The notes under the pieces were generated by a model. It saw nothing but the letters and a program-made list of their open reading frames with translations, had not been told where the DNA came from and did not search any database. This document shows positions 6,542 through 44,436 of a DNA stretch of 44,436 bases, in pieces. The first letter of the stretch is position 1; the number at the start of each line of letters is the position of its first letter. The translations under genes and the position numbers were made by a program. Location of the stretch: assembly GCA_025362585.1 (NCBI GenBank), contig JANYFR010000011.1:1-44436 (forward strand), given 5' to 3'. The stretch comes from Acidimicrobiales bacterium. GTDB lineage: Bacteria; Actinomycetota; Acidimicrobiia; Acidimicrobiales; RAAP-2.

Positions 6542-6547
6542 GAAGCC

Positions 6548-7123: not shown

Positions 7124-7554
7124 CGATTGCCCCGATGGGTGGCCGAGGGGGTCTCTCTTCCCCGGCGGCGCAACTTTACCTACCTCACCCCCTTTCGGAC
7201 GCACTCGATCGTCGTTGGAGAGTGGGTTGGTCATAGTGATGACTACATGCGAACCCATTCGACTGGACGGTTTGCGATGCGACCTCGAGGTCTGTCTCAT
7301 CAACCGCCGACGTCAGTCGACCACGATAGAAGTCGGCCTCACCAACATACCGAGAGACCAGTACCCCTCATCGTGATGGCATTGGACGCCTCGTCATCGC
7401 CTCTCTTTCATCGATGCACCTACAGCCCTCACAAGGGTGGCGACACCAGCCGCGACGAACCGACAAACACCACGCCTTCGAGGCGCTGTCATGATGGCTG
7501 GGCCACGAGAATCCGACCCGCGTTCCCAGCGTGGGACCGTGCGAACGACGGCGG
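7124..7554. other. 431-base intergenic region, nothing recognised
   Basis: It lies between the convergent regulator and hydrolase genes. All six frames give only short frames with no family resemblance or plausible ribosome-binding site. No RNA gene, clear terminator hairpin or transposon end was identified. Confidence 0.5.
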
Positions 7555-8907
7555 CTACAACGACTCTTTGATGAGTAGCGATGGACCGTACTTGAGCGTC
7601 GCGATTCGTCCTTGGCGGTCGGCTCCAAAGGTGATGATCTCGCCCAGATGTCCAAAGTCGTCACCCTCGGCGATGAGGAATCGCCTCTTGCCCTTGGGCA
7701 CCAGTCGTGCTGCGACGGAGAGGGGTGACGGCTCTTTCGGATCGACGAGGAAGAGGGAGCCATTTATGCGAACTACCAGGAGGTCATCCCCCCAAATCCG
7801 GTAGCAACCGATGAACGGAGCAAGCGTTCCGCGCGTGTGCCACTTCGTCGACGCCTCGGCGTCACTCCAACGTCGTCTGACCTGGGCTGCTAAGTGGAAG
7901 AGCAGGTCAAGTGCCTCGGCGGCAAGCGGCGAGTTCGCATTGGTGAGGACTGCGCCAGCCAGTCGCTCGACCGGCGAGAAGCCAACCTTCGTCACGAAGC
8001 CGGGATATCCCCCGCTGTGACCAAGGATTTTCGTCCCGTCAACGTGCCAGGACATCCAACCAAGGCCGAAGTGCGGCTCCTCGTCGCGCAGCCACTGCGT
8101 GCGCTGCATCTCGCGCTTGGCGTATTCGCTCAGCAGGCGCTGGTCCCCTGAAAAGTGGGCCGCAAGATACTCGAGCAGATTTGGCACGGTCGAAATGAGT
8201 CCGGCCGCTGGGGCCACCGCTCGCGCGGCGAAGTGCCCCGCCTCGATTATTGGCTCGTTCGGGCGGCCCAGAAGGTAGCCGGTGGCGAGATTGCGACGCG
8301 CCGCGGGCACGAGGTCGGGATAGGTGTCGCTGAGACCCAGTGGCGTCAAAACCTCGCGACGCAGGAGTGTCCCGTACGTGCGTCCACCTGCCTGCTCGGC
8401 GATTTCACCGAGCATCGAGAACGCCACATTCGAATATCTGAAGTGAACTGACGGCTCAGTGAAACTGGCGCCGCGTGCGAACTCGCGGCGCAGCTCCTCG
8501 GTGTTCGAGAGCGATGTAGACCAGTCGTTCCCACCATCGCGCAGGACGCCCCCAGCGTGCATGAGCAGGTGTCGGATTGTGAGGTCGGCACCGACCGCGG
8601 ACACGGTCCACGGGAGCCATCCGCGAACGGTGTCGTCGAGGCGGAGTTTTCCCCGGTCAGCGAGGCGCATGATGAGCGTCGAGGTGAACGTCTTCGTGAT
8701 TGAGGCGCACCGGAACGAGGTGGACGTCGGATCCACGGGACCCTCGCTCGCAGCATCGGCCACACCATGACCGCCCAGGAGGACGGTCTCGTCACCGTGG
8801 CGCAATCCGAAAGCCACGCCAGGCACTCGCGCGTAGAGGGCGCGGAGATGAAGGAGCGGATCGGCGATGCGTGCGACGTCGGCGAGCTGACGCGAGGAAA
8901 ATAGCAT
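7555..8907 (-). CDS. beta-lactamase-fold serine hydrolase (class C/EstB/DD-peptidase type)
   Basis: Family members are penicillin-recognising serine enzymes acting as esterases, D-aminopeptidases or DD-carboxypeptidases; true beta-lactamase activity is not implied. The three active-site elements are present: SITK (Ser69/Lys72), YSN (158-160) and HSGG (297-300), the class C version of KTG. The 450 residues exceed the ~360-residue core by a C-terminal domain of strands (~360-450, GCYRIWGDDLLVVRING onward), like the lipocalin-like tails of other members of this group. No signal peptide is visible, so it is probably cytoplasmic, and a wall-remodelling role would be surprising. Neighbours give no functional hint. 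Confidence 0.82.
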   Translation of the reverse strand: MLFSSRQLADVARIADPLLHLRALYARVPGVAFGLRHGDETVLLGGHGVADAASEGPVDPTSTSFRCASITKTFTSTLIMRLADRGKLRLDDTVRGWLPWTVSAVGADLTIRHLLMHAGGVLRDGGNDWSTSLSNTEELRREFARGASFTEPSVHFRYSNVAFSMLGEIAEQAGGRTYGTLLRREVLTPLGLSDTYPDLVPAARRNLATGYLLGRPNEPIIEAGHFAARAVAPAAGLISTVPNLLEYLAAHFSGDQRLLSEYAKREMQRTQWLRDEEPHFGLGWMSWHVDGTKILGHSGGYPGFVTKVGFSPVERLAGAVLTNANSPLAAEALDLLFHLAAQVRRRWSDAEASTKWHTRGTLAPFIGCYRIWGDDLLVVRINGSLFLVDPKEPSPLSVAARLVPKGKRRFLIAEGDDFGHLGEIITFGADRQGRIATLKYGPSLLIKESL

Positions 8908-10454: not shown

Positions 10455-11692
10455 CGCGTTGGCGTTACGCCGGAGCGACCGATATTGGATTGGTGCGTCA
10501 ATCGAATCAGGACGCGATCTACGTCGATGATCGGCTGGCGATGGTCGCGGACGGCATGGGCGGTCACGCCGCCGGCGAGGTGGCCTCCGCCATTGCCATC
10601 GACTTCATTCGTAGCGCATTCGATGAGCGTCCTACGGTCGAGGGCCTTCACAACGCGATCAATTCAGCCAATTCGGCGGTCTTGAAGGACGCGCACGACA
10701 ATCCCTCTCACTTCGGTATGGGCACCACGGTCATCGCCGTCGGTCTGACTCGCGACATTGAGGGTGTCACGTCGCCGACCCTGGTCCACGTGGGTGATTC
10801 GAGGGCGTACCAACTGCGCGACGGAGCGCTTCGTCAACTCAGCGAGGATCACAGCGTCGCTGAGGAGTGGGTCCGTATGGGACGACTCACCCCCGAAGAG
10901 GCCGCGGTGCACCCGCGTCGACACCAGCTGACGCGAGGCGTCGGGGTGGAGGACACCATTGCGATCGACGTGATGTCACTGCACGCCGAACCCGGGGACC
11001 GAATTCTGCTCTGTAGTGACGGCCTCTCCAACGAACTTGACAACGACACGATCGCTCGTCTCGCCAGCGCCCCCAACGGCCTCGACGAGGCGGTCACGCA
11101 GCTGGTCACGTCGGCGAAAGTGGCGGGTGGGCGCGACAATATCTCGGCGGTGTTGTTGGAGTTCGACGAGGTGAACGTTGCGGCGGTCCCCGTCAAGCGC
11201 ACCGTGACGTCGAATCCGCCGCCGGTGGCGCCGCGGGGCCAGTCGACTTCGTCACGGGCGTCGCGTCACCGTCGAATGACCTGGCGGGTCTGGCTGTCAA
11301 TGGCCCTGTTCGCGGCGGTCGTCGCCGGTGGCTTTGCCGTGGTCCACTGGTACGCCTACTCGACCTACTACCTCGCGGACGATGCCGGGACCATTGCCAT
11401 CTTCCAGGGCCAACCGAACGGGGTGCTCTGGTACCAGCCGGTGAAAGTATTTGACACCCAGTACCAAACGGCACAACTGCGACCGACCGACCGCCAGGCC
11501 CTGAGAGCGACGATCGGCGAACCTACGTTGATGGCGGCCGAGAACTGGGCCAACTACATTCACTCTGAGTACTGTCATTACTCTTCTTGTGGAGCTCGTC
11601 CCGTGACCACCACGACCGTTCGAGGAACGACGACGACCGTGCTGGGTACAACGACGATTCATGTCACGACGACGACCGCGAAGAAGGGATAG
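10451..11692 (+). CDS. pstP: PstP: PP2C-family Ser/Thr phosphatase
   Basis: The cytoplasmic PP2C domain (~1-235) dephosphorylates PknB and its substrates using Mn ions. Visible signatures are TDIGLVRQSNQDA, DGMGGHAAGE (34-43), VHVGDSRAYQLRDG, CSDGLSNEL and GGRDNISAVL. A basic linker leads to one transmembrane helix (~279-301) and a ~110-residue external domain. The last ~26 residues are threonine-rich (VTTTTV, TTTTVLGTTT, VTTTTA), probably an exported glycosylatable tail. TTG 10451 overlaps the fhaB stop. pbpA begins three bases after the stop, with AAGGGA as its ribosome-binding site. No FtsW/RodA gene intervenes, unlike the mycobacterial order. Confidence 0.93.
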   Translation: MTRWRYAGATDIGLVRQSNQDAIYVDDRLAMVADGMGGHAAGEVASAIAIDFIRSAFDERPTVEGLHNAINSANSAVLKDAHDNPSHFGMGTTVIAVGLTRDIEGVTSPTLVHVGDSRAYQLRDGALRQLSEDHSVAEEWVRMGRLTPEEAAVHPRRHQLTRGVGVEDTIAIDVMSLHAEPGDRILLCSDGLSNELDNDTIARLASAPNGLDEAVTQLVTSAKVAGGRDNISAVLLEFDEVNVAAVPVKRTVTSNPPPVAPRGQSTSSRASRHRRMTWRVWLSMALFAAVVAGGFAVVHWYAYSTYYLADDAGTIAIFQGQPNGVLWYQPVKVFDTQYQTAQLRPTDRQALRATIGEPTLMAAENWANYIHSEYCHYSSCGARPVTTTTVRGTTTTVLGTTTIHVTTTTAKKG

Positions 11693-32416: not shown

Positions 32417-33144
32417 TCGAATCGGAAGGTCCGGGCGGCCGCGAGGGGAGCCAGCACGGCCCACAGTCCGAGGACCAGCCAGTCGGTGCCGGTCACGGCG
32501 ACACCACGACCGAGGACTCGATGGAGACCTTCGGCAAGTGCGCCCGTCGGTAGGACGACGACGGCGCGACGAACGAAAGGTGGCAGCGAGGTGAGTGGCA
32601 CGACGATGCCCGACACCAGGAGTAGCACGAGGTAGAGGCCGTTGGTCGCCGCGAGGTTGACCTCGGCGCGCAGACGGCCGGCGAGCGCCAAACCAATGCC
32701 CGCGCAGCCGGCCGATCCGAGCAGCAGCACCGCGGCCACCTCCGTGGCGCCGAAGAGCCCACCGCGCGGGTGCCAGTGCAACAGGAGTGCGACCCCGGCG
32801 AGGATGAGGACCTGGAGAACTTCAGTGACGACGACGCCCGCGATTTTGGCGCCAATGAGTCGTCGCCGACCAAGCGGCGTCACGTGCAACCGTCGCAGGA
32901 CGCCGAACGACCGTTCGAAGCCAGTCGCGATCGACAGGGCCACTAGTGACGTGGACAGCACGCACAGGGCGAGAATGCCCGGCGCCACGAAGTCGACCCG
33001 GCTGCGGTCGGGGGTCGCGATCACGTGGGCCTCGGAGAAAAAGACGAGCAGCAGCACCGGGATGCCCACGGTCAGGAGCAGCGTCTCGCCGCGGCGAACC
33101 GTCATGCGTACTTCGGCGAGGGTCTGGGCCCACCACGCCCTCAC
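32413..33144 (-). CDS. ABC-2 type transporter permease
   Basis: The 243-residue membrane protein has six helices in the ABC-2 pattern. These start with the amphipathic WWAQTLAEVRMTVRRGETLLLTVGIPVLLLVFF. GVLRRLHVTPLGRRRLIGAKI is the cytoplasmic coupling loop, typical of daunorubicin/heme-exporter-like permeases. SGIVVPLTSLPPFVRRAVVVLPTGALAEGLHRVLG is the external re-entrant segment. Its ATG overlaps the stop of the ATPase gene by four bases (ATGA), so the two form one exporter. The stop overlaps the converging thioredoxin stop. The substrate is unknown; drug or lipid-like molecules are usual. Confidence 0.88.
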   Translation of the reverse strand: MRAWWAQTLAEVRMTVRRGETLLLTVGIPVLLLVFFSEAHVIATPDRSRVDFVAPGILALCVLSTSLVALSIATGFERSFGVLRRLHVTPLGRRRLIGAKIAGVVVTEVLQVLILAGVALLLHWHPRGGLFGATEVAAVLLLGSAGCAGIGLALAGRLRAEVNLAATNGLYLVLLLVSGIVVPLTSLPPFVRRAVVVLPTGALAEGLHRVLGRGVAVTGTDWLVLGLWAVLAPLAAARTFRFD

Positions 33145-34052
33145 GACCCGGTCGCGTTTCGTTCATCCGCGAGCAGCTCCATGTAGCGCTCCTCGAGCGA
33201 CGCGCGTGTTCGTAGCGACACTATGGAGAGTCCGACGTTCGCGAGGTGGCCCGCGATGGTCGCGATCCGCTCCGGGGTCGAGGCCGTCGCGCAGCGCAAC
33301 CGCAACGGTCCGTCGAGTACAACTGCGCATCCGAGCAACGTCGAGAGTGCCGCGGGGTCGACCGACCCCGACGTCTCGACGATCATCGCAGGGTCGCCCG
33401 CCAACTCCTCGAGGGTTCCCTGCGCTATCACGTGACCGCGGTTCAAGATCACGAGGCGATTGGCCATTCGTTCGGCCTCTATCAGCTCGTGGGTCGTGAT
33501 CAACACCGCGCAGCCTCGCTCACGTTCCGACGCGATGATGTCGCGGATCACCTGGCGACCCTCGGGGTCGACCGAGGTCGTGGGCTCGTCGAGCACCAGG
33601 ACCCTCGGGCGCCCGAGCAGGGCGAGGGCCAGCAGCGTGCGCTGCTGCTCGCCGCCACTTAGTCGGCGCCACGGCGTGCGCGAACATTCGTCGAGGTCGA
33701 GAAGAGTGAGCAGTTCACTGACTGCGCGAGGAGCCTCGTAGTACGTGGCCGTTAGCGTGAGGACCTGGCGAGGCGTCAGTGGGGCCCAGACGCCCCCACG
33801 CTGGAGTAGCGCGCCGGTGCGCACGACCACTTCGCGGTGGTCGCGAAGTGGATCGAGACCGTGCAGTCGCACGGTCCCCGTCAGGGGCGATCGAAAGCCC
33901 AACAGCGTCTCCACGACCGTCGTCTTGCCGGCGCCATTTGGTCCGAGCAACGAGACCACTTCGCCGTAGTCGACGTTGATCGACACGTCGTCGACGGCGC
34001 GTCGCTCGCCGTAGCGCACCGCTAGATGGTTGACCTCGACTGCGTTGCTCAC
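33141..34052 (-). CDS. ABC-2 transporter ATP-binding protein
   Basis: The 303-residue ATPase has Walker A GPNGAGKTT (37-45), signature LSGGEQQR, Walker B VLVLDEPTTSVD and switch His in ITTHEL. A C-terminal domain (~215-303) is of the DrrA type. The start is GTG 34052, giving SNAVEVNHLAVRYGE as a normal beginning. The frame extends upstream to 34226 only through sequence overlapping serS on the other strand. With the downstream permease it makes a homodimeric exporter. Confidence 0.9.
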   Translation of the reverse strand: MSNAVEVNHLAVRYGERRAVDDVSINVDYGEVVSLLGPNGAGKTTVVETLLGFRSPLTGTVRLHGLDPLRDHREVVVRTGALLQRGGVWAPLTPRQVLTLTATYYEAPRAVSELLTLLDLDECSRTPWRRLSGGEQQRTLLALALLGRPRVLVLDEPTTSVDPEGRQVIRDIIASERERGCAVLITTHELIEAERMANRLVILNRGHVIAQGTLEELAGDPAMIVETSGSVDPAALSTLLGCAVVLDGPLRLRCATASTPERIATIAGHLANVGLSIVSLRTRASLEERYMELLADERNATGS

Positions 34053-34112
34053 GACCCTTGAACCTAGACGGTACGACGGGGTCGTCCAACGCTCCTCGGT
34101 AGGCTGACGAAC

Positions 34113-35420
34113 ATGATCGATCTCGTTCAGCTCCGTCGCGAACCAGACGTCGTGAAGGCAGCGATGGCTCGCCGGGGGGTGTCGTCGGGAGCCATGGACG
34201 CCGTCCTCGCCCTCGACCTCCAACACCGTGGTCTGTTGCAGGAGGCCGAGCGACTGCGCGCTGAGGTCAAGTTCCTGTCACGCCTGGTGGGCGAGGCACG
34301 CCGCGAGAAGGACGTCGCGACGGCCGAACAGTTGGCCGCCAAGAGCCGCGTCGTGGGCGAGGAAGAGCGCCAGGCGACCGAAGCGACCGCGCGCGTCGAG
34401 ACGTTGCTGCGCGCGCAACTCCTCGCGCTGCCGAACGTGCCATCGCCCGACGCTCCCGATGGCGTCGACGAGAAGGACAACGTCGAGCTCCGTCGCTGGT
34501 GGGTGGGGATGGACGAAGGCCGGGCCTTTCCCACGTACGAGCCGTTTCAGCGAGTGGCGCACTGGGATATCGGTTTGGAACTCGGCATCCTCGACCTCGA
34601 GACCGGCGCGAAGATCGCCGGATCGATGTTCCCGCTCTTTCGCGGTGACGGCGCGAGGTTGTTGCGAGCCCTCGGCTCCTACGCGCTCGACCAGCATTGT
34701 GACGCGTACGAGGAGATCCGACCTCCGAGTTTTGCGCTCACCGAGACGATGATGGCGACGGGTCACCTGCCCAAGTCCGCCGACGACATGTACGCGATCG
34801 AGCGCGACGGGCTGTGGGCGATCCCGACGGCCGAGGTGCCGCTCACGTCGATGCACCGCGGTCAGATCCTCGACGAATCGAGCCTCCCAATTCGCCTCAC
34901 CGCCCAGACGGCCTGTTTCCGTCGCGAGGCCGGGGCCGCGGGGCGTGACACGCGAGGGCTGTTGCGGGTTCACGAATTCGACAAGGTCGAACTGTTCGCC
35001 TACTGCACGCCCGACCAGGCCGAAGCGGCCCACGCCGATATTCTGCGTCGCGCCGAACGCCTGCTCCAGGCCCTCGGACTCACCTACCGGCTCCTCGACC
35101 TCTGCTGTGGCGACCTCGGCACCTCATCGGCGCGAACCATTGACCTCGACGTGTTCAGTCCGGGCGTCGACCGGTGGCTCGAAGTCTCGTCGGTGAGCTG
35201 GTTCCGGGACTTCCAGGCCCGACGTGCCAACGTGCGCTACCGAAAAGATGACGGCACCACGGCACTGGTCCACACCGTGAACGGTTCGGCCCTCGCGTGG
35301 GCGCGAATCTGGGCGGCCCTCGTTGAGACCTACCGTCACGCCGACGGCTCGGTGCACCTTCCCGAGGTCCTCGCGCCGTATATGGGCGGCGTGGCGACGA
35401 TCCTTCCTAGGACTTCGTAG
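34113..35420 (+). CDS. serS: seryl-tRNA synthetase
   Basis: SerS charges tRNA-Ser in the cytoplasm. The 435 residues comprise an N-terminal two-helix coiled-coil arm (~25-100, LQHRGLLQEAERLRAEVKFL onward) that grips the long variable arm, then the class II core. The core has the TAEVPLTSMHRG motif, motif 2 (TACFRREAGAAGRDTRGLLRVHEFDKVELF) and motif 3-like NGSALAWARIWAALVETYR. The last is a slight variant of the usual NGS(G/A)xAxxR. The stop overlaps that of the converging response regulator by 14 bases. The 60-base gap upstream contains both this promoter and that of the divergent ABC genes. Confidence 0.95.
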   Translation: MIDLVQLRREPDVVKAAMARRGVSSGAMDAVLALDLQHRGLLQEAERLRAEVKFLSRLVGEARREKDVATAEQLAAKSRVVGEEERQATEATARVETLLRAQLLALPNVPSPDAPDGVDEKDNVELRRWWVGMDEGRAFPTYEPFQRVAHWDIGLELGILDLETGAKIAGSMFPLFRGDGARLLRALGSYALDQHCDAYEEIRPPSFALTETMMATGHLPKSADDMYAIERDGLWAIPTAEVPLTSMHRGQILDESSLPIRLTAQTACFRREAGAAGRDTRGLLRVHEFDKVELFAYCTPDQAEAAHADILRRAERLLQALGLTYRLLDLCCGDLGTSSARTIDLDVFSPGVDRWLEVSSVSWFRDFQARRANVRYRKDDGTTALVHTVNGSALAWARIWAALVETYRHADGSVHLPEVLAPYMGGVATILPRTS

Positions 35421-36129
35421 TCTCGAAGCGGTAGCCGACGCCACGAACGGTGGTGATGTGCACCGGACTCTTCGGGTCGATCTCAATGTGCGAACGTAAC
35501 CGTTTGATGTGCACGTCGAGGGTCTTGGTGTCGCCGACGTAGTCGTTGCCCCACACCCGGTCAATCAGGACCTCGCGGGTCAACACTCGACCGGGATTTT
35601 CGAGTAGCAGCCGAAGAAGCGCGAACTCCTTCTTGCGCAACTTGATCTCCTCGTCACCGACGAAGCAGCGTCGCCCTTCGATGTCCATCCGGATGGGACC
35701 GTGGGTAATCTGCTCATCGGAGTCGTAGACGAACTCGTGGCTCTCGCGTCGGCGCAGCACGGCGCGTATTCGCGCCACCAGCTCCCGCAGTCGATAGGGC
35801 TTGGTCACGTAGTCGTCGGCCCCAATCTCGAGCATGAGGACCATGTCGACCTCTTCGCCCTTCGCACTCACAATGATGATCGGCACTTCGCTTCGAGCAC
35901 GAATAGCGCGACAGACATCGAGACCGGACATCTTGGGCAGCATCAGGTCGAGCAGGATGACGTCGAATGACTCCCTCGCGACGACGGCCAACGCCTGCAG
36001 ACCGTCTCGGGCAATCTCCACTGCGAAGCCCTCACGGCCCAGACCCACGGTGAGCGCATCGATGAAGGACTCTTCGTCTTCGACGACGAGAACCCGCACC
36101 TTCTTCTCCGGCGTGGTCTGCTTCGCCAT
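35407..36129 (-). CDS. regX3: OmpR/PhoB-family response regulator (RegX3-like)
   Basis: The receiver domain (~11-125) has acidic residues VVEDEE, phospho-acceptor Asp61 in LLDLMLPKMSG and Lys in VSAKGEEVD. A winged-helix DNA-binding domain (~145-236) contains LRKKEFALLRLLLENPGRVLTREVLIDRVWG and VDVHIKRLRSHIE-like KTLDVHIKRLRSHIE, ending VRGVGYRF. Its ATG overlaps the kinase stop (TAATG). In mycobacteria RegX3 with SenX3 controls phosphate-starvation genes; the assignment here rests on gene order and similarity. No phoU gene is adjacent. Confidence 0.88.
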   Translation of the reverse strand: MAKQTTPEKKVRVLVVEDEESFIDALTVGLGREGFAVEIARDGLQALAVVARESFDVILLDLMLPKMSGLDVCRAIRARSEVPIIIVSAKGEEVDMVLMLEIGADDYVTKPYRLRELVARIRAVLRRRESHEFVYDSDEQITHGPIRMDIEGRRCFVGDEEIKLRKKEFALLRLLLENPGRVLTREVLIDRVWGNDYVGDTKTLDVHIKRLRSHIEIDPKSPVHITTVRGVGYRFETTKS

Positions 36130-37424
36130 TACTGGTTCATGGGGAGTTCGAGGGTAAAGGTGGATCCCTCTCCTTCACGAGACTCCACCAGGACGTTGCC
36201 GCCGTGGTTCTGGGCGACGTGGCGCACGATACTGAGGCCGAGACCGGTGCCGCCGGTCTCACGAGCGCGGCCCGGATCGACGCGGTAGAAGCGCTCGAAG
36301 ATCCTTTCGAGGTCCTTCATCGGGATGCCGACGCCTTCGTCGCGGATGGCGATGCGTGCGAACGGACCGATCACCTCGCCGTTGCCGTCGACTGTGGCCT
36401 CAATCCGATAGGCGGTGATATGGACGGCCGCTCCTCGGGGAGAGTAGACGACGGAATTCTCGAGCAGCGCGTGGATCGCCGAGATCAGCTGTCGCCGATT
36501 GCCGACGACCACGAGGCTCTTCTCGGGCTCTTCGAAGTTGATCTTGACGTCGTGCTGCTCGGCGGCGGTGCGGATGCGCTCCGTGGCATCGGCGATGATC
36601 AAAGAGATCGGAATGGGTTCGCGCGTTGGCGATCCCTCGCCCTCGATTCGCGAAAGATCGAGGAGGTCTTCGATAATTCGATTCACGCGGAACGCTTCGG
36701 AGTTGATGCGCTCGGCGAGTCGCGTGGCGACCACCGGGTCGCGCTCAAACTGGAGGGTCTCGGCGAGAAGTCCCAGCGCGCCCATCGGGGTCTTCAGTTC
36801 GTGCGACACGTTCGCGATGAAGTCGCGCCGGGTGTCTTCGAGGCGACGTCGTTCCGAGACGTCCTCGATGATGGCGAGCACGCCGAGCGGTCGTCGGCCG
36901 TCGTCGATCACCGAGGCGCGAATGGTGAGGGTTCGTCGCGGAGGGCCGTAGATGTCGATGGTTCGTTCCGCCCGGCCTTCGGACCAGCCGTCCGCCAGCA
37001 CGTCGGTGACCGCCTGGGCCGCAATGGCGTCACCGTAGCGGCTCGTCATGAGGGTCTCAGCCCGCCTATTTCGAAACAGGACGCCTCCGGATTCGTCACA
37101 CAACACGAGTCCGAGCGGTAACGCGTCGAGTGATTCGCGAAGACGTACGACCTCGGAACTGGATGCACTGACCGCGGTCGTCGCCGCGCCGGTCGCCTCC
37201 TCGAGGTGACTCAGGGCGGCCTCGACCTTCCCCCTCTCATCACGAGGCTCGACGCCGAGCCGCGACGCCAGGGCGGTAAGTCGCTGGGCGATCGCTCGAT
37301 GACCGCGACGGCGGTTGGCGAGGACGCCCACCAGAACGCCGAAGACGAGGACGCCGACGCCCGCGAGGTAGATGGCGTAGGCCGGCCACAGGGAGACCAC
37401 GTTTTTGGTCGAAGCGACGATCAC
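36129..37424 (-). CDS. senX3: sensor histidine kinase (SenX3-like)
   Basis: The 431-residue membrane kinase begins with one transmembrane helix (~14-36) and has almost no external domain. A PAS-like segment (~95-190, LDALPLGLVLCDESGGVLFRNRRAE) is followed by the HisKA domain with phospho-acceptor His208 in NVSHELKTP. The ATPase domain has N-box ALLENSVVYS, G1 RDEGVGIPMKDLERIFERFYR and G2 GGTGLGLSIVRHV. One helix plus PAS is the SenX3/PhoR layout used with PhoU. GTG 37424 is chosen as start because the open frame beyond it overlaps the divergent genes. Its start is only 30 bases from the divergent secretion operon. Confidence 0.87.
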   Translation of the reverse strand: MIVASTKNVVSLWPAYAIYLAGVGVLVFGVLVGVLANRRRGHRAIAQRLTALASRLGVEPRDERGKVEAALSHLEEATGAATTAVSASSSEVVRLRESLDALPLGLVLCDESGGVLFRNRRAETLMTSRYGDAIAAQAVTDVLADGWSEGRAERTIDIYGPPRRTLTIRASVIDDGRRPLGVLAIIEDVSERRRLEDTRRDFIANVSHELKTPMGALGLLAETLQFERDPVVATRLAERINSEAFRVNRIIEDLLDLSRIEGEGSPTREPIPISLIIADATERIRTAAEQHDVKINFEEPEKSLVVVGNRRQLISAIHALLENSVVYSPRGAAVHITAYRIEATVDGNGEVIGPFARIAIRDEGVGIPMKDLERIFERFYRVDPGRARETGGTGLGLSIVRHVAQNHGGNVLVESREGEGSTFTLELPMNQ

Positions 37425-37454
37425 CGACCCATTCTCGCAGACGGAGTCACGCGC

Positions 37455-37787
37455 GTGGGTGTTGCGACCGTTGGGATCTCTCTCGTTGAAAGTGTGGTCA
37501 CCATGTTGTTTGCCAACGTCAGCCTCAATCCCTCCACGTCCGACCTTCCAGGAAGCGCGGCGTTGCAGCAGATCACGAACGGGATCGCCGCGTGGGCACT
37601 TATTGGGGCCCTGGCGGCGCTGCTCCTGGGAGCGGCCCTGTGGGCGGTCGGGAGCCACACCCAGAATATGCATCAGTCGGCGCAGGGGCGCCGTGCGGTT
37701 CTCACGTCCCTCGGCGCCGCGATTCTGATTGGCGCCGCGCCGAGCCTGATCAACTTCTTCTTCCGCACTGGGCTCAGTGTTCACTGA
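37455..37787 (+). CDS. VirB2/TrbC-like pilin-type protein (DUF6112-like)
   Basis: This small membrane protein of ~110 residues has three hydrophobic stretches: an N-terminal one that may be a signal segment, then WALIGALAALLLGAALWAVG and AVLTSLGAAILIGAAPSLINFFF. A polar loop HTQNMHQSAQGRR separates the last two. Preceded by LNPSTSDLPGSAALQQITNGI, it closely follows the pattern of actinobacterial conjugation-locus proteins comparable to VirB2 pilins. GTG 37455 has GGAG eight bases upstream; ATG 37503 would remove the first hydrophobic stretch. The stop overlaps the next ATG by one base. Expected role: subunit of a channel or surface filament. Confidence 0.68.
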   Translation: MGVATVGISLVESVVTMLFANVSLNPSTSDLPGSAALQQITNGIAAWALIGALAALLLGAALWAVGSHTQNMHQSAQGRRAVLTSLGAAILIGAAPSLINFFFRTGLSVH

Positions 37788-38899
37788 TGGGTCACCTGTC
37801 GTGCATCATTTCGCCGGCGTCGTGCATCATCAAATCGATCGCGAAGTCGACGCTCGGAGGTTTCTTTAACACGTTGACGAGTTGGGTGCTCGACAGTGTG
37901 CACTGGTTCTTCTCGGCGACCGGCAGCGTTCTCACGTCGGCCAGTGAGCCCTCGACTGTCGTGCGGGCGTCGTCTCAAGAGTTCGCGGTCCTGTTGAAAC
38001 TGGCCCCGGCGATTCTGTTGCTCGGTCTGCTCGTCAGCACCCTGCACGCCCTCCAGCGAGGAGAGGGCTCTTCGCTCTGGCGCCTCTACTTCGGCGTCGC
38101 GCCGGCCTGCGTCGCCGCCATTGCCCTCGCGCGGCCGATGGCGTCGCTCGTGTTGGAGGCGGTGAATCAACTCTCGAGCACCGCGGCGACCACGGTAACC
38201 CAGCACGAGGCCGCCCTCACCAAGGCAATGACCGAACTCACGATCACCACGCCCGGATTCGGCCTCTTCCTTCTCGGACTGACCGTGGTCGTCGGCACGT
38301 GGCTGTTGTGGTGCGAACTGATCGTGCGAACCGTCGTACTCACCTTGCTCCTGGTGCTGGTGCCCGTCATCGTGCCCCTCTCGGTACTGCCGTCGGGTCG
38401 TCGACTGGGTTGGCGCCTCGCCGAGACGTTCCTCGCGGTCGCCGCCAGCAAATTATTGATCGTGATCACCCTCTCGTTGGGTCTCAATGAACTCATGGGT
38501 AGTTCGGCGACGCAGATCATCACCGGTGCCGTCACGCTGTTGTTGGCGACCGCCTCCCCGTTTCTCCTCTTACGCGTGATTCCGTTCATCGAGCAGTCGG
38601 CCCTGCACAATCTGGAGGGCGTGCGATCGCGCTACACCCGCCTCGTCACCGGGGCGTCTTCGTCGCCGCTCGCGACAGTAGCGCGCAACCTCGTTCCCGA
38701 GATGCCAGTGCCGGGTCCGACACCGCGTCCGGACGATCTCGGTCTCGAGATGTGGCGAGGCAGCGGGGAGACGCCCATGCCCCCCATGGACGGCGAACGG
38801 CCACCACCACCAATCGGTGAGCCTCGCGCCCGTGGGGGCCACGTTGCCTACTACAAGGACGACATGGGACCGGTCGTTGGCTGGCACTTCGATGAGTGA
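37787..38899 (+). CDS. VirB6/TrbL-like polytopic channel protein
   Basis: The 370-residue protein has at least six transmembrane helices. These include LKLAPAILLLGLLVSTL, LYFGVAPACVAAIALARPMASLVL, FGLFLLGLTVVVGTWLLWCELIVRTVVLTLLLVLVPVIVPLSVLP, LAETFLAVAASKLLIVI and ITGAVTLLLATASPFLLLRVI. The WCELIVRTVVL...PLSVLPSGRRLGWRLAETFLAV block is the type of conserved core seen in TrbL/VirB6 proteins of actinobacterial conjugation loci. A cytoplasmic proline-rich tail (~300-370, with PMPPMDGERPPPPIGEP) follows. N-terminal Cys pairs CIISPASCIIK are unusual. It overlaps the upstream stop (TGATG) and the next start by eight bases. Confidence 0.75.
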   Translation: MGHLSCIISPASCIIKSIAKSTLGGFFNTLTSWVLDSVHWFFSATGSVLTSASEPSTVVRASSQEFAVLLKLAPAILLLGLLVSTLHALQRGEGSSLWRLYFGVAPACVAAIALARPMASLVLEAVNQLSSTAATTVTQHEAALTKAMTELTITTPGFGLFLLGLTVVVGTWLLWCELIVRTVVLTLLLVLVPVIVPLSVLPSGRRLGWRLAETFLAVAASKLLIVITLSLGLNELMGSSATQIITGAVTLLLATASPFLLLRVIPFIEQSALHNLEGVRSRYTRLVTGASSSPLATVARNLVPEMPVPGPTPRPDDLGLEMWRGSGETPMPPMDGERPPPPIGEPRARGGHVAYYKDDMGPVVGWHFDE

Positions 38900-39956
38900 G
38901 TATCTCCAGCTCGGTGGCGCGGACGCCGAGACGAGGTGGTTCGGTGTCCGACGCCATCAGGCGATCCTCGCCGTTGTGGGTGCTGGACTCGTGGGTGACT
39001 GGATGACCCGGACGGCGACATCGTTTATTGAGTTCGTCGCGGGCCTGCTGCTCGTGGCGAGCGTGATACCGACATACGATCAACGGACCGTCGCTGAATG
39101 GGCTCTCATCATTCTTCAATTCGCGCTCCGTCCGCGCTGGCTCAATCGCGTCGGGGCGCCCGACCGGCGTCGACGCTCCGGTCCGGGCAGCCTGCGCGTG
39201 GCGTCGCGGCTGCTCACCTTGGTGCATCGGGGCCGCCTGGACCTGACGGGACGCGACGTCGAGTGCGCCGACGGACTGGCTCGCCTGGCCGACGCGATGA
39301 GTGCCGCGGAACACGGTGGCCATTTTTCGATCCACACGTCGGTCGACGTCGAGCACGCCACGACGTGGCTCGTGCTCCCGGTCGACGCCACCGCGCCCGA
39401 AGGCTGGGTCGCGTCTGATGAGGTCGAATGGCCGTCGGGTCGGCCCGAAGCGCTCGACCCGACTGAGGTACTTATCCGGTGGCGCTACGTGCGGGGCTCG
39501 AACGGACTCGTCCGAGTGCTGCGCGTACGAGACTTGGGCACCGCGTCAGACGGTCGGGCGGTGCTGGAACGGATCCAGTTCGCCGCGGCGCTCGTGGACG
39601 TCGTCATTCACGTTGACGTTGTCGCTCGAGCCCGCGGCCACCGCGTCGTCTCTCGTGCCGTGCACCGAGACGGGAGTGACGACGCGGTGACGACGGCCGC
39701 CGGATTCCGGCGCAACGCGCGAAGTCGTCAGCGGCTGCTTCGACTCCACCAGCGCGAGGAACTCGTCGCCGGTGGTCGTTCGTTGTTGCGGATCGCGGTC
39801 TTCGTCGTGGTGCGCGCAGCCGACCCGGACCAACTGCGCACCGGGGTGGTCAACGTCCGCAGCGTTCTGAACGACGCTGGGCTGCAGTTCGAGCAGGGAC
39901 TCGGGCGTCAGGCGTCGTGGTTCGCCGACCAGTCGCCGTGCGGGCTGGGCCGGTGA
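38892..39956 (+). CDS. PrgI-like/VirB4 N-terminal-domain membrane protein
   Basis: The 354-residue protein starts with a soluble segment (YLQLGGADAETRWFGVRRHQAIL), two close transmembrane helices (~24-62) and a basic loop, the arrangement of PrgI/SCO6880-type conjugation proteins. The remaining ~260 residues are soluble. They contain VRVLRVRDLG and RQRLLRLHQREELVAGGRSLLRIAVFVVVRAADPDQLRTGVVNVRSVLNDAGLQFEQGLGRQASWF, which corresponds to the region just before the ATPase domain of VirB4 proteins (helix pair then FxxxxP-like end). The next gene carries the ATPase, so VirB4 seems split here. ATG 38892 is set by operon overlap; GTGA couples it downstream. Confidence 0.7.
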   Translation: MSEYLQLGGADAETRWFGVRRHQAILAVVGAGLVGDWMTRTATSFIEFVAGLLLVASVIPTYDQRTVAEWALIILQFALRPRWLNRVGAPDRRRRSGPGSLRVASRLLTLVHRGRLDLTGRDVECADGLARLADAMSAAEHGGHFSIHTSVDVEHATTWLVLPVDATAPEGWVASDEVEWPSGRPEALDPTEVLIRWRYVRGSNGLVRVLRVRDLGTASDGRAVLERIQFAAALVDVVIHVDVVARARGHRVVSRAVHRDGSDDAVTTAAGFRRNARSRQRLLRLHQREELVAGGRSLLRIAVFVVVRAADPDQLRTGVVNVRSVLNDAGLQFEQGLGRQASWFADQSPCGLGR

Positions 39957-41131
39957 GCCCCTCCTGGACCCACTGGGCCACCTCGCACGACCTGAGGAGC
40001 CTTCGCGTGCCCGCGCACGACGCCGGGACGAGCCTCGAGGGTCGCAGCCTCGGTCGGGCACTGCGAGGATCGTCATTTGTCCTCGACCCGTTCGACGCGT
40101 ACCGGACGGGACTGGTGTCCAATCCCAACGTCATCGTCGCCGGCTCGATTGGGGCCGGCAAAAGCACGGTCGTCAAGATGATGCTCGACCGCGCCCTCGA
40201 GCGCGGACGTCGGGTCGTCGTGATCGACCCCAAGGGCGAGTACGGCGAGTTGGCACGGCGCCACGGCGCCACGGTCATTGCCTTAGGACGAGACGGCTGG
40301 TGCGATCCATTTTCCGACGACGACCTCGAGAGTCGTGACTTGCTGCGGGTCCTGATCGCGAGCGCGCAGGGCGCGCCCCTGAACCCCGACCAGCATTTCG
40401 TCATCGATGAGGCCTGGCGGAGCCTGAGCGGCTCTCGCCCACTGCGGGTACTGCGGGCCCTGTATCAACATCTCGAGGTCCACGTCACGACGCTCATCCC
40501 CACGCCGGAGCGCGCCGTGGCGCTCGTCCTCTATCGATTCGTTCACGGAGACTTGGCGGGACTGTTCGACGGACCGGGCGACCCCCTCACCTTCACGGGC
40601 GGGCTGGTCGTGCTCGACCTCTCGGCGCAGTGGGCGTCGGGCTCGTTCTCCGTGGCGGTGTTGAGCGCGGTGGCAGCGGCCCAGCAGGTCGTCGCGAACT
40701 CCGAGGCGTTGGGCTATCTCGTCCTCGACGAGGCGTGGGCCCTGCTGGCGGACGCCCACGCGCTTCGGTGGCTCCAGGGATCGTGGAAGCTCGCCCGGGC
40801 GAGGGGTCTCAGTCACGTCCTGGTCCTGCATCGTTGGAGCGACGTCGCGTCGGCGGGCGACGCCGGCAGCGCGCAGCGCGAGCGGGCCCAGGGACTGCTA
40901 CGAGAGTGCGAGACGGTGTGGCTGTTCCGCCAACCACCCGACGAGGCTCGCGAGATAACGCGCGCGCTCGGGCTCCGCGACCTCGAGGAGCGCTACCTCG
41001 TTGCGCTGCCCAAGGGCACCGCGCTCGTGCGATACGGCGTCCATCGATCGATCGTGCGAGTGCAGCCCGATCGGACCGACGATAGCTTCGTCGATACCGA
41101 CGGGGCAATGAGGGCGCGCCGTGGTGAATGA
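39953..41131 (+). CDS. VirB4/TraC-like conjugation ATPase (ATPase domain only)
   Basis: The 392-residue ATPase powers assembly or substrate movement in type IV secretion. GSSFVLDPFDAYRTGLVSNPNVIVAGSIGAGKST includes Walker A (64-72) with the DPF...NPN lead-in characteristic of actinobacterial VirB4 relatives. VVVIDPKGEYGELARRHGA follows, and Walker B is GYLVLDEAWALLAD. Later come SHVLVLHRWSDV, CETVWLFRQPPDEAREITRALGL and LPKGTALVRYG, the usual VirB4 end. The N-terminal VirB4 domain is missing but supplied by the previous gene. GTG 39953 overlaps that gene's stop (GTGA), and the stop lies inside the next gene's start region. Confidence 0.83.
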   Translation: MSPSWTHWATSHDLRSLRVPAHDAGTSLEGRSLGRALRGSSFVLDPFDAYRTGLVSNPNVIVAGSIGAGKSTVVKMMLDRALERGRRVVVIDPKGEYGELARRHGATVIALGRDGWCDPFSDDDLESRDLLRVLIASAQGAPLNPDQHFVIDEAWRSLSGSRPLRVLRALYQHLEVHVTTLIPTPERAVALVLYRFVHGDLAGLFDGPGDPLTFTGGLVVLDLSAQWASGSFSVAVLSAVAAAQQVVANSEALGYLVLDEAWALLADAHALRWLQGSWKLARARGLSHVLVLHRWSDVASAGDAGSAQRERAQGLLRECETVWLFRQPPDEAREITRALGLRDLEERYLVALPKGTALVRYGVHRSIVRVQPDRTDDSFVDTDGAMRARRGE

Positions 41132-42296
41132 CCGGCCCGTACTGGGACGCCGGACGTGGCACGGTCTGGCAATCGGTCCCCGAATGGCCCTCGCCCCGAA
41201 GAGCTCGCTGCTGATCGTCGGGCCGACCCAGGTCGGTAAGACGTCCTCTCTGGTGATCCCTGCGCTGCTCCGATGGGAGGGCGCGGCCGTCGTCACCAGC
41301 GTGAAGATGGACGTCGTGCGCGCGACCAGTGCCTGGCGGAAGACGCTCGGTGAGGTGCAGTTACTCGAGCCGGGCCGCGACGAGGGACTGACCTGGAACC
41401 CCCTCGAGGGGGTCTCGACCCTTCGCCACGCGCTACGCGTCGCCCGTGACCTCACGACGGGCCCGAGCGAGCGCGGCGACGTCGAGTTCTGGAACTCGCT
41501 CGCGACCAAGATGATCGCAGCCCTGCTCATGATGGCCCGGGCCCGAGGTCGCGACATCTTCGACGTTGCCTTGGTCGTCGAAGGGCGCGACCTGCGTCCC
41601 TGGGTGCAGGCGGCGGGCCGGACCGAGGAACGGGCCATCCTCGAAGGTTTCCTCGACTACGACGTGAAGACGCTCGAGGGCGTGTTAACGACGGCCGAGA
41701 CCATGATGATGCCGTGGCGATTTCGCCAACCGATGGCCCGGGTCCGCTCGGTGACCGTGGGCAACAACACGCTGTACCTCTGTAGCCCGCGAGGCGAGCA
41801 GCGTCACTACGATTCGCTCTTTCGTGGGGCACTGCGCATGGTGCTCGAAGAGCAACAACGCCTGGTCGACGTCGGCGCCCAACGCCGACTCCTGGTCGTG
41901 CTCGACGAGGCGGCCACGGTGGGCTCGCTCGACGAACTCGACCAACTCGCGGCCACGGTGAGTGGTCTCGACGTCACTCTCGTGACCGTGGTCCAGGACT
42001 TCGCGCAGCTGACGTCACGCTGGGGAGCGCGCGCTTCCACGATCGTGAACAATCACACCACGCGGCTCGTCCTGGGTGGACTGGCCGATCCCACGATCGT
42101 GAACTACCTGCCCGAGTTGGTGCAAGCCCACGAGGGCTCGTCGCTCGTGCCGATCCGCCAGCGACCGGCCGGGAGCGGCACGGTGGTCGCCGGACAGTCG
42201 CCCATGTTCGCCGTTCGCCTGCAGCCCTGGTGGAGATGTCGCCGCCTCCGACACCGTGGGCGCCGTGAGACCTCGGTACGATTCCCCCATGGGTGA
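41121..42296 (+). CDS. VirD4/TraG-like coupling ATPase, compact form
   Basis: Coupling proteins bring DNA or protein substrates to the secretion channel. Walker A is VGPTQVGKTSSLVIPALL (34-41 core), followed by AAVVTSVKMDVVRATSAWR, WNPLEG, FWNSLATKMIAALLMMA, GNNTLYLCSP and Walker B LLVVLDEAATVGSLDEL. VTVVQDFAQLTSRWG and NNHTTRLVLGGL match the TraG C-terminal motifs. At 391 residues it lacks the N-terminal transmembrane pair of VirD4 and therefore looks soluble. The C-terminus (RCRRLRHRGRRETSVRFPHG) is strongly basic and may be extra sequence or read-through. It overlaps the VirB4-like gene by 11 bases and the next gene by eight. Confidence 0.82.
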   Translation: MVNDRPVLGRRTWHGLAIGPRMALAPKSSLLIVGPTQVGKTSSLVIPALLRWEGAAVVTSVKMDVVRATSAWRKTLGEVQLLEPGRDEGLTWNPLEGVSTLRHALRVARDLTTGPSERGDVEFWNSLATKMIAALLMMARARGRDIFDVALVVEGRDLRPWVQAAGRTEERAILEGFLDYDVKTLEGVLTTAETMMMPWRFRQPMARVRSVTVGNNTLYLCSPRGEQRHYDSLFRGALRMVLEEQQRLVDVGAQRRLLVVLDEAATVGSLDELDQLAATVSGLDVTLVTVVQDFAQLTSRWGARASTIVNNHTTRLVLGGLADPTIVNYLPELVQAHEGSSLVPIRQRPAGSGTVVAGQSPMFAVRLQPWWRCRRLRHRGRRETSVRFPHG

Positions 42297-43050
42297 ATCG
42301 GTCGTTGATGGCGAAGGCGTGGTGCTCGCGATTGACATCGGGGCGACCAACGTGAAGTTCTGTCACGTCGACGGTGGCGGCGACCTCCTGGAGGCGCCGA
42401 AGCGGCGTCCCACCCCGTACCCGTGTTCGCCGGCCCGTCTCATCGAAATGCTGGTCGTACGAATACTCGCGAGTGACTGCCCGCGCTGCGGCGTTGGCTT
42501 CCCCGGGGAGTTCCGCGACGGTCACGTCATTGCGCCCGGCAATCTTTCGCGACCGGGTGGGGTGACGACGGAGAAAGACCCCGTGCTCGACGGGCAGTGG
42601 CGCGGCTTCGGACTTCAGGCGGCATTGCGCGACGCGTCGCGCCGAGACGTACGCGTTGTCAATGACGCGACCCTCGCGGCACTTGGATCAATCGACGGTG
42701 TCGGCACCGAGCTGGTGCTGACCCTCGGTACCGGACTGGGAATGGCCCTCGCCATCGACGGCGCGATGCAGCCGGTCCGCGACGTGGGGGCCGAGCTCTT
42801 CGTCGACGACAAAACCTACGACCAACTCGTCGGCGAGCGATCGAGAGCGAGTGACGAGACCCAGTGGGGCCTCTTGCTGCGTCGTGCGGCGGAGGGTTTT
42901 GCCAAGGAGTTCCACGCCACGAAAATCCATCTCGCCGGAGGCAACGCCCGGCGCGTGATGGTCGATCTCTTCGCCGACGCGCCCTTCGAGGTCGTGGTCA
43001 ATGGCAATGAGGCGTCGCTGCGCGGCGCGGCCATGTTGTTCTACGACTGA
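42289..43050 (+). CDS. glucokinase-like protein (ROK/polyphosphate glucokinase type)
   Basis: This ASKHA-fold sugar kinase has 253 residues. LAIDIGATNVKFCHVD is the phosphate-1 motif, VGFPGEFRDGHV contains the usual (V/I)xFPG, RVVNDATLAALGS provides the catalytic Asp region and TLGTGLGMALAIDG is the phosphate-2 motif. Size and the absence of the ROK zinc Cys motif favour polyphosphate/ATP glucokinase-like enzymes, common in actinobacteria. No sugar-uptake gene is close. Its ATG overlaps the end of the coupling ATPase by eight bases, so it is probably carried on the same transcript as the secretion operon; the functional link is unclear. Confidence 0.8.
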   Translation: MGESVVDGEGVVLAIDIGATNVKFCHVDGGGDLLEAPKRRPTPYPCSPARLIEMLVVRILASDCPRCGVGFPGEFRDGHVIAPGNLSRPGGVTTEKDPVLDGQWRGFGLQAALRDASRRDVRVVNDATLAALGSIDGVGTELVLTLGTGLGMALAIDGAMQPVRDVGAELFVDDKTYDQLVGERSRASDETQWGLLLRRAAEGFAKEFHATKIHLAGGNARRVMVDLFADAPFEVVVNGNEASLRGAAMLFYD

Positions 43051-44228
43051 GCGAGGTCGACGGCGCTCGCGGCGAGCACCCCCGCGATGACGCGACAGGC
43101 GTCGTCGTCGATCGCAAAATTCGGACTGTGATGCATTCCGCTCGTCCCGTCCGCCAAGGCGCCCCCGATCAGCAGGTAGCAGCCCGGTACCTGGTTCAAG
43201 AACTCCGAGACGTCGTCACTGGGCGAAACCGGGGGGATCGTTATGACGCCCTTTGGACCGACCACCTTCGCGGCGCTCGCCATCACCCGCTGGACGACCT
43301 CCACGTCGTTGTGTACCGCGGGCGTGCCCTCGTGCAGCTCGAGGGTGGAGGTGACGCCGAACGCGGCATCGACCTCGGCGAGGAGCGCCCGGAGTCGGTC
43401 GAGCGCGACGCCTTGCTGACCGGGCACGAACGTGCGCAACGTTCCCCGAAGTTGCGCGTGACGCGGGACGACGTTGTTGGCGTTCCCGGCGCTCAGGACC
43501 CCGGCCGAGCATGCACAGCTGGTGCCGTCAAAGTGGAGCCCGTCGACGACCTCGCCGAGTCGTGGCGCGAGGTGACTGATCGCGAGCACGACGTTCCCAT
43601 CGGTTGACGCCATGGCGCCGTGACCACCCTGACCGGAGAGATGAACGTCAATCGCCAGCGCCTCGCTCATCAAGATCCCGGGACGAGTGGCGACAAGGCC
43701 GACGGGAGCGACGGAGGTCACGTGCGCGCCGATCACGAAGTCGACGGGGTTCGTGTCGAGGACGCCGCCCGCGATCATGGCCCGAGCACCGCCGAGCGCC
43801 TCCTCGGCCGGTTGGAAGATGAGGGTGAACTCGCCGGCGAGGAGGTCGCGGCGCCGAGCGAGCAGGTCAGCGACGCCGAGCAGGGCTGCGGTATGAACGT
43901 CGTGGCCGCACGCGTGCATTACGCCCTCGTGGAGAGACGTGAAGGAAACGTCGACCTCCTCGGTGACCGGCAGGCCGTCGATGTCCGCGCGAATCATCAC
44001 CCGTCGTCCCGGTCTCGCACCACGCAACGTGGCGACGGCACCGGTCTCGGTCGGACATGCGGCCAGATCCCATCCGATCGAGCGGAGCCGGTCCCTGATC
44101 ACCGCGGTGGTGTAGTGCTCTCGGAAGGCCAGTTCGGGGTGAGCGTGCAGATCGTGACGAATCTCCACCATCGGGTCGCGAATCGAGGAGAGCAGCTTGG
44201 GCAGATCGTCACTGAATGTGCGAGACAT
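43041..44228 (-). CDS. M20D-family amidohydrolase/peptidase
   Basis: The 395-residue enzyme hydrolyses N-acyl or N-carbamoyl amino acids or related amides (hippurate hydrolase/IAA-amino-acid hydrolase group). Metal-site motifs are HDLHAHPELAFRE, RADIDGLPVTE, HACGHDVHTAALLG (Cys107, His109), QPAEEALGGARAM and a final GMHHSPNFAIDD. A dimerisation domain with SGQGGHGAMAS lies between. ATG 44228 is preferred; ATG 44252 adds eight residues. Its end overlaps the glucokinase-like end by ten bases, tail to tail. The substrate is unknown. Confidence 0.92.
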   Translation of the reverse strand: MSRTFSDDLPKLLSSIRDPMVEIRHDLHAHPELAFREHYTTAVIRDRLRSIGWDLAACPTETGAVATLRGARPGRRVMIRADIDGLPVTEEVDVSFTSLHEGVMHACGHDVHTAALLGVADLLARRRDLLAGEFTLIFQPAEEALGGARAMIAGGVLDTNPVDFVIGAHVTSVAPVGLVATRPGILMSEALAIDVHLSGQGGHGAMASTDGNVVLAISHLAPRLGEVVDGLHFDGTSCACSAGVLSAGNANNVVPRHAQLRGTLRTFVPGQQGVALDRLRALLAEVDAAFGVTSTLELHEGTPAVHNDVEVVQRVMASAAKVVGPKGVITIPPVSPSDDVSEFLNQVPGCYLLIGGALADGTSGMHHSPNFAIDDDACRVIAGVLAASAVDLAQS

Positions 44229-44299
44229 ACAGGCATGGTAGTGAGCCACCACGGGATTCGCGGAATGACGGTCGGCTAGGATGGCACACCAGCAACAAT

Positions 44300-44376
44300 G
44301 CGGCTGTAGCTCAGCGGATTAGAGCATCGGTCTACGGAACCGAGGGTCGGGGGTTCGAATCCCTCCAGCCGCACCA
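44300..44376 (+). tRNA. tRNA-Arg (ACG)
   Basis: The 77-base gene has acceptor GCGGCTG/CAGCCGC, D-arm GCTCAGCGGATTAGAGC, anticodon stem TCGGT/ACCGA with loop CTACGGA (anticodon ACG, wobble A expected to be inosine), T-arm GTTCGAATC, discriminator A and encoded CCA. Confidence 0.97.
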
Positions 44377-44436
44377 ACTCATCTTCAACCTGGGCCCAGA
44401 AAATGGAAGTGCCTGGCCGAACGCCACCGTGTTCGT

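Follow-up and report, generated by a model that had tools for sequence, protein, structure and literature searches.

Conjugation machines are usually regarded as equipment of plasmids and transposons. The nearest known kind of system to the one described here is formed by Ced of the Sulfolobales and Ted of the Thermoproteales, archaeal DNA-import machines that have no recognised relaxase and for which single-stranded DNA (ssDNA) is thought to come from HerA-NurA (excerpts of PMC9905601). Expression of Ced is activated by DNA damage, and a statement of 2023 in the same source holds that, to its authors' knowledge, domestication of a type IV secretion system (T4SS) for DNA transfer was unreported in other organisms (PMC9905601, as excerpted). 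In bacteria, Streptomyces coelicolor carries chromosomal gene sets, cmdABCDEF (SCO4126-4131) and SCO6871-6884, with a VirB4-like CmdB and a CmdC that resembles SCO6880 (excerpts of PMC2782261). Here, a related operon is described from an Acidimicrobiales bacterium. The window analysed is the whole of contig C60 (JANYFR010000011.1; 44,436 nucleotides), one of 64 contigs of a 2.09-Mb genome that is 96.4% complete, and the operon lies at 37503-42296. On balance, and with modest confidence, it is taken to be part of a single chromosomal, mainly vertically inherited conjugation-type machine that is divided between two loci and most likely exchanges chromosomal DNA between cells.

The operon consists of five consecutive genes on the plus strand that overlap by a few bases, as a sequence-only reading of this DNA had reported. 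With bounds refined by means of family alignments and of the sequence upstream, the genes are as follows.

37503..37787, plus strand: g1, VirB2-like pilin of 94 amino acids (DUF6112, PF19607, 38.7 bits against a Pfam cut-off of 25; T4SS_pilin match under its cut-off; family alignment of 19 rows with a mean column identity of 54%)
37787..38899, plus strand: g2, VirB6/TrbL-like polytopic channel protein of 370 amino acids (weak TrbL_4 match; predicted fold)
38892..39956, plus strand: g3, VirB3-like N-terminal helices followed by a VirB4 N-terminal domain, 354 amino acids, SCO6880-like (profile and predicted fold)
39953..41131, plus strand: g4, VirB4 ATPase, the motor part (VirB4/TraC-type P-loop ATPase profile matches)
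41121..42296, plus strand: g5, VirD4/TraG-type coupling protein, VirD4a (PF02534, 91.5 bits against a cut-off of 20.1; PF12696, 53 bits)

These assignments agree with the families proposed earlier (VirB2, VirB6, VirB4 N-terminal, VirB4 and VirD4), with the addition that the third gene is also VirB3-like. Thus, parts of a conjugative T4SS of the monoderm, MPF-FATA-like kind are present, namely a VirB4 with its Walker motifs, VirB6- and VirB3-like parts and a VirD4. For g1, the GTG at 37455 that had been given as the start was dropped, as the family alignment and a ribosome-binding-like stretch favour the ATG at 37503. The sequence evidence for g2 is weak, with TrbL_4 under its cut-off (18 versus 27 bits) and TrbL_4 and TrbL each matched by 1 of 18 family members; its predicted fold (predicted local distance difference test, pLDDT, 83) has TrwI/VirB6 of R388 as its top matches in the PDB, with a probability of 1.00 and an E-value of only 0.006. 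The NCBIfam SCO6880 match of g3 itself is likewise under its cut-off (32 versus 60 bits), and SCO6880 is matched by 17 of 18 aligned g3 homologues (best 6e-78). The predicted fold of g3 (pLDDT 85) finds TrwK/VirB4 of R388 (2e-4) and the R388 VirB3-VirB4 complex (6e-4) after a chain of the ESX-3 translocon (4e-6); the fold predictions used the window sequence together with 45 of 66 and 48 of 72 available alignment rows. The best match of the g3 fold is thus to a type VII chain, and one g3 homologue matches EccE by sequence; type VII components and VirB3/VirB4 may be distantly connected. In g4 homologues of genomes that carry the resident operon, Walker A (G..G.GKS) and Walker B (DE) are invariant in all 45 aligned sequences. 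As a separate observation on VirD4a, the Walker A glycine preceding the lysine is retained in 24 of 44 aligned sequences and not in the other 20; the copy in the window is standard.

No relaxase had been seen from the sequence of the window. This holds for the surroundings of the operon but not for the genome, and the relaxase escaped the sequence-only reading because it sits at an unlinked locus. On contig C7 of the same genome, a TrwC-type (MOBF) relaxase of 362 amino acids (PF08751, 89.5 bits against a cut-off of 25) is encoded convergently with a second VirD4 (VirD4b), which was found by a coupling-protein domain search, and the two genes overlap at their stops. Directly upstream of the relaxase gene is that of a 651-amino-acid double-WYL protein whose best solved relatives are the DNA-damage regulator PafBC (6sj9, 3e-18) and mycobacterial PafC/PafB; this PafBC-like protein is the only match in the genome to its query at an E-value of 0.001. 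Compared with solved structures, the relaxase profile matched TrwC and TraI (best 7e-48), and PF08751 was matched by 20 of 20 aligned relaxases of the window's family. The active site was aligned in 51 sequences (24 from the family and 27 from other carriers, some of them not linked to pafBC): 50 have the tyrosine and one has a gap there, and the motif histidines are kept in 51, 49, 51 and 51. The roles of these residues are presumably those of their counterparts in TrwC/TraI. In VirD4b, the GKT and DE motifs are kept in 32 of 32 sequences. At one of these loci (L054), a PafBC-like gene at 5883-7838 lies near TldD-PmbA-MoaC and the relaxase, and a short histone H1-like frame of Lys/Ala/Pro repeats (10502-10762) adjoins VirD4b; antisense-looking frames occur in L065 and L073.

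The two loci share their presence across genomes. Among the matches listed, pafBC and a relaxase are no more than 4.5 kb apart in 20 of 26 genomes that carry the resident operon and in 0 of 24 that do not (Fisher 5e-9, in a test that ignores kinship and with weak relaxases that may escape), and the 20 genomes span 15 families. The comparison covers genomes in which both relaxase and pafBC could be placed, with a pilin match under 100 bits counted as absence of the operon. It was drawn from 99 genomes with 29 carriers of a resident pilin outside family f16, whose two genomes were counted apart; G322, G324 and G353 were excluded, as either the relaxase position among the matches listed or the pafBC match was missing. 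The pafBC positions of G186 and G074 come from the regions read, and the relaxase positions of G074, G186 and G245 from the class-wide relaxase search. Five further carriers, picked non-randomly (G381, G388, G407, G410 and G424), also have the relaxase-pafBC pair. The T4SS and relaxase trees of 35 genomes are congruent as well, with 17 of 32 splits in common, compared with at most 3 in 500 label shuffles, and a distance correlation (r) of 0.87.

The coupling proteins point in the same direction. VirD4b is found beside the relaxase in the family and also in G225, G308, G318, G325, G334, G344, G351 and G358. Among the named public loci, of which the best 80 of 305 were considered after ranking by likeness to the family's VirB4, seven show no VirD4a in the interval of about 55-75 bases that separates the g4 match from the gene of a ROK kinase downstream (L210, L157, L167, L170, L176, L183 and L202). 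G260, the genome to which L210 belongs, yielded no VirD4a from the operon region and has the VirD4b linked to the relaxase, as if the operon were being served from the second locus. Taken together, the co-occurrence, the tree agreement and the coupling proteins indicate that both loci belong to one system.

The position of the operon is defined by the following neighbours, of which the genes had been named beforehand, the ROK kinase as glucokinase-like. A gene for an M20 amidohydrolase also lies to the right of the operon.

34113..35420, plus strand: serS (PF00587, 112.6 bits)
35407..36129, minus strand: regX3-like response regulator (Response_reg and Trans_reg_C)
36129..37424, minus strand: senX3-like histidine kinase, the divergent neighbour (HisKA and HATPase_c; in-frame GTG start; conserved adjacency)
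37425..37502, no strand: divergent promoter region of 78 bp, between the senX3-like start (likely the GTG at 37422-37424, minus strand) and the T4SS operon
42289..43050, plus strand: ROK-family kinase, the downstream neighbour (PF00480, 32.5 bits; conserved)
44300-44376: tRNA-Arg, right of the operon

This arrangement and that of the second locus are conserved across the window's family. A match to the VirD4a query, either VirD4a or its paralogue, was found in 60 of 61 family genomes and in 21 of 21 genera, mostly in two or more places. Twenty family regions were then picked around VirD4a matches and another 20 around VirD4b matches, such that the presence of VirD4 was preset and that of the relaxase, pafBC and senX3 neighbours was not. 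In the VirD4a regions, g1-g5 occur in order in 18 of 20 (L050 and L051 hold g4-g5 only) and a divergent senX3(-regX3) in 16 of 20. All 20 VirD4b regions have a convergent relaxase, with stops 1 kb apart in L064, and all 20 have one or more PafBC-like genes upstream of the relaxase in the same orientation, at no more than 60 bp from its domain in 15. In the class-wide draw, each of the 16 family members has a single relaxase match and a single strong VirB4 match; G040 has an extra weak VirB4 match besides its strong one.

Among the best 80 named loci, all five genes are present in 62, senX3 in 72, serS in 68 and ROK in 75, and each locus has senX3 or ROK; many of the shortfalls are contig ends. 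The comparison of gene order around senX3 and serS in related genomes that had been proposed thus supports a resident, domesticated machine whose position is conserved over many Acidimicrobiales families. These loci are titled as acidimicrobial or other actinobacterial metagenome-assembled genomes (MAGs), with a few under other phyla, and by their names they come from bog, palsa and fen soils, acid sites and freshwater bins. Six records titled Saccharibacteria or Acidobacteria (L161, L178, L189, L192, L206 and L213) carry an acidimicrobial locus, and thus their titles are probably wrong.

Among 198 genomes belonging to the order, VirB4 was matched in 83 at an E-value of 1e-20 and the pilin in 73, with at least 100 bits in 59. 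The senX3-linked operon recurs in 14 other Acidimicrobiales families, where a strong pilin lies beside senX3 (f3, f5, f13, f22, f23, f59, f64, f70, f74, f75, f78, f80, f82 and f90). The genome taken as that of the type strain of Acidimicrobium ferrooxidans (G074) has a TrwC relaxase (L229) as well as the operon, which stands next to senX3-regX3 (L228). The region L254 of family f65 is without senX3, and none was seen in regions with a weak pilin (28-64 bits), some of which are short contigs. In family f16 (pilin 101-123 bits), L221 of G245 and L270 of G341 have the T4SS beside a divergent relaxase instead of senX3, which may represent a mobile relative or a relocated copy. Outside the class, senX3 was found in none of 11 regions from 9 genomes, and three regions of two genomes unite the pilin gene with a relaxase at a single locus, in the fashion of a mobile element. 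Family f30 of another order has related T4SS genes, all five in L216 (G069), in regions without senX3 (the other being L226 of G218); neither genome has a relaxase match, and a relaxase-free derivative is possible.

The operon is under purifying selection. In eight close species pairs, the ratio of nonsynonymous to synonymous substitution rates (dN/dS) of its genes is 0.02-0.27, except for g3 in one pair (0.41), and dS is broadly like that of serS, the core-gene reference for vertical inheritance. The T4SS and serS trees have 12 of 29 splits in common, and their distances correlate with r 0.19 when all genomes are included and 0.65 without four serS outliers (G284, G425, G353 and G186). The earlier impression was that the composition of the operon is like that of the rest of the chromosome; the GC content is 0.64-0.69 in the operon and 0.58-0.68 in the remainder of the window.

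Several observations weigh against a single, mainly vertically inherited machine for DNA exchange. Neither the T4SS tree nor the relaxase tree recovers the window's family as a clade, and resident sequences are interspersed with some of mobile type; no clean split between resident and mobile sequences was found, as the best relaxase split holds 4 mobile-type rows and the best VirB4 split 10. A single capture is therefore not proven. Many genomes of the order are without the operon (pilin of at least 100 bits in 59/198), and most of the genomes compared are MAGs. The kinship and the weak relaxases already mentioned qualify the co-occurrence, and in 6 of the 26 carriers, A. ferrooxidans among them (7.9 kb), the relaxase is not within 4.5 kb of pafBC. 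VirB8/TcpC (PF12642) had no match in the genome at an E-value of 1, although divergent forms would escape, and there is no VirB1 peptidoglycan hydrolase among the five operon genes, the genome not having been searched for one. Finally, the PafBC promoter motif, as an exact consensus, has no match in the window, and PafBC is thus tied to the machine by gene order only.

By its parts the system appears to be a conjugation machine, and by the tests made it is not a mobile element. The window operon would supply the mating-channel half, with its pilin, channel, two-part VirB4 motor and coupling protein, and the DNA-processing half would be the TrwC-type relaxase, often with a second VirD4, at the unlinked locus that usually lies just behind pafBC. 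Judging from the kept tyrosine and histidines, the relaxase may nick chromosomal DNA and remain bound to the strand. VirD4a or VirD4b would then pass it to a VirB3/VirB4/VirB6 channel with a VirB2 pilus, as the protein families suggest, such that ssDNA could enter a neighbouring cell of the same kind and recombine there. The gene order hints that PafBC may time the process to DNA damage, as in a Ced-like induction, or to transfer itself, even though the exact motif is absent from the window. In mycobacteria, PafBC is activated by ssDNA (excerpts of PMC11804915), and a connection with either damage or the strand being transferred would be consistent with this. A fuller account, rather more doubtful than the general one, is an inherited, damage-timed mating system in which the cell exchanges its own DNA without a plasmid, with PafBC, a sensor of ssDNA, as the neighbour of the relaxase and a SenX3-RegX3-like system encoded divergently from the channel, as a counterpart of Ced in which a relaxase has been kept.

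The divergent region between senX3 and the operon holds two conserved blocks, TCTCGCAGA at 37433-37441 and CGACCGTTG at 37465-37473, and in 72 extracted upstream regions, the window's included, TCTCGCAGA is present in 61, CGACNNTTG in 66 and CGACCGTTG in 55 (35 of the 72 regions entered the alignment). A link of the operon to phosphate or stress signalling through this shared promoter region is possible. The CAT at 37430-37432 was rejected as the senX3 start as it is out of frame; the in-frame start is the GTG at 37424.

The sequence-only reading had left the export of DNA, the export of protein and surface structures side by side. With a relaxase and a second VirD4 in the genome, export of DNA is likelier than either of the latter alone. 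The alternative that fares best, although it is unlikely, is a T4SS domesticated for envelope, developmental or protein-export work in the manner of cmdABCDEF, with the pafBC-linked relaxase as a separate nickase for repair or replication. Loss of the cmd genes, chromosomal relatives of VirB4 systems, disturbs sporulation and chromosome segregation and not the transfer of the plasmid tested, and SCO6880, which g3 resembles, has been likened to cmdC (excerpts of PMC2782261). A T4SS mostly without relaxase is also known from the chromosomes of Patescibacteria (excerpts of PMC12102498). A separate nickase is at odds with two unlinked loci that share both presence (20/26 versus 0/24 among the matches listed) and tree shape, and with a relaxase that adjoins a second coupling protein in 20 of 20 family regions, a protein that can be the sole one remaining, as in G260.

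Less probable still is a DNA-import machine as proposed for Ced, in which the relaxase would process outgoing or incoming strands. In characterised plasmid systems, coupling proteins and MOBF relaxases serve export, which counts against import. The core of VirB2, VirB6 and VirB4 and the chromosomal residence are the same, yet the account of Ced and Ted, in the excerpts relied on, names no relaxase (PMC9905601). An integrative conjugative element of recent origin, or one that still moves, with senX3 as its neighbour by chance is very improbable, and a recent element was rejected, in keeping with the earlier view that this is not a recent conjugative element: closely related loci of mobile type, each uniting T4SS genes and a relaxase, do occur in other actinobacterial classes (L297-L299) and in f16 (L221/L270), but the same site is occupied in 72 of the best 80 named loci, one strong copy is present in 16 of 16 family genomes, the distribution is not scattered, divergence (dS) is broadly like that of serS, only short direct repeats (14-36 nt) occur within 33000-44436, and no integrase was found among 10 neighbouring genes scanned from 26836 to the right end, including senX3, regX3 and the amidohydrolase gene.

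If an exchange of chromosomal DNA by this machine is correct, it would be a bacterial case in which the cell has appropriated conjugation to handle its own DNA, where the 2023 paper, as excerpted, knew archaeal cases only (PMC9905601). It would also bear on recombination in uncultured actinobacteria with small genomes. The question is testable because A. ferrooxidans, with its senX3-linked operon and TrwC relaxase, is in culture. With this two-locus layout, such systems would be overlooked by surveys in which a relaxase close to virB4 is required. In open-licence PubMed Central, none of the matches listed was by title on T4SS, conjugation or relaxases in Acidimicrobiia or Acidimicrobiales, and no paper was found on a relaxase together with PafBC.

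In relation to known systems, the MOBF/T4SS elements of other Actinomycetota (such as L297-L299) share the gene families, with relaxases that score 240-251 bits against the family profile; these differ in having relaxase and T4SS in one locus that is not beside senX3, and in their scattered distribution. The likeness to cmd rests on the SCO6880 family match of 17 of 18 g3 homologues and not on a direct comparison with CmdB or CmdC, and cmd differs in its phenotype of sporulation and segregation, its neighbours and its gene order, with no relaxase mentioned in the excerpts at hand (PMC2782261). The T4SS of Patescibacteria, related to MPF-FATA, is likewise chromosomal, lineage-wide and of monoderm type, but the 109 relaxases in 103 genomes there are read by the authors as acquired elements (excerpts of PMC12102498), whereas the relaxase here belongs to a conserved partner locus. 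The PafBC regulator has its likeness here in the PafBC-like gene upstream of the relaxase; elsewhere in Actinobacteria, pafBC is tied to the proteasome locus, a different setting (review PMC8223512, as excerpted). Ced and Ted remain the nearest kind. As in those systems, and with the reservations raised by the trees, a chromosomal and domesticated VirB2/VirB6/VirB4 machine appears to be vertically inherited; unlike them, the present system is bacterial, has a conserved relaxase partner and carries one or two VirD4 proteins.

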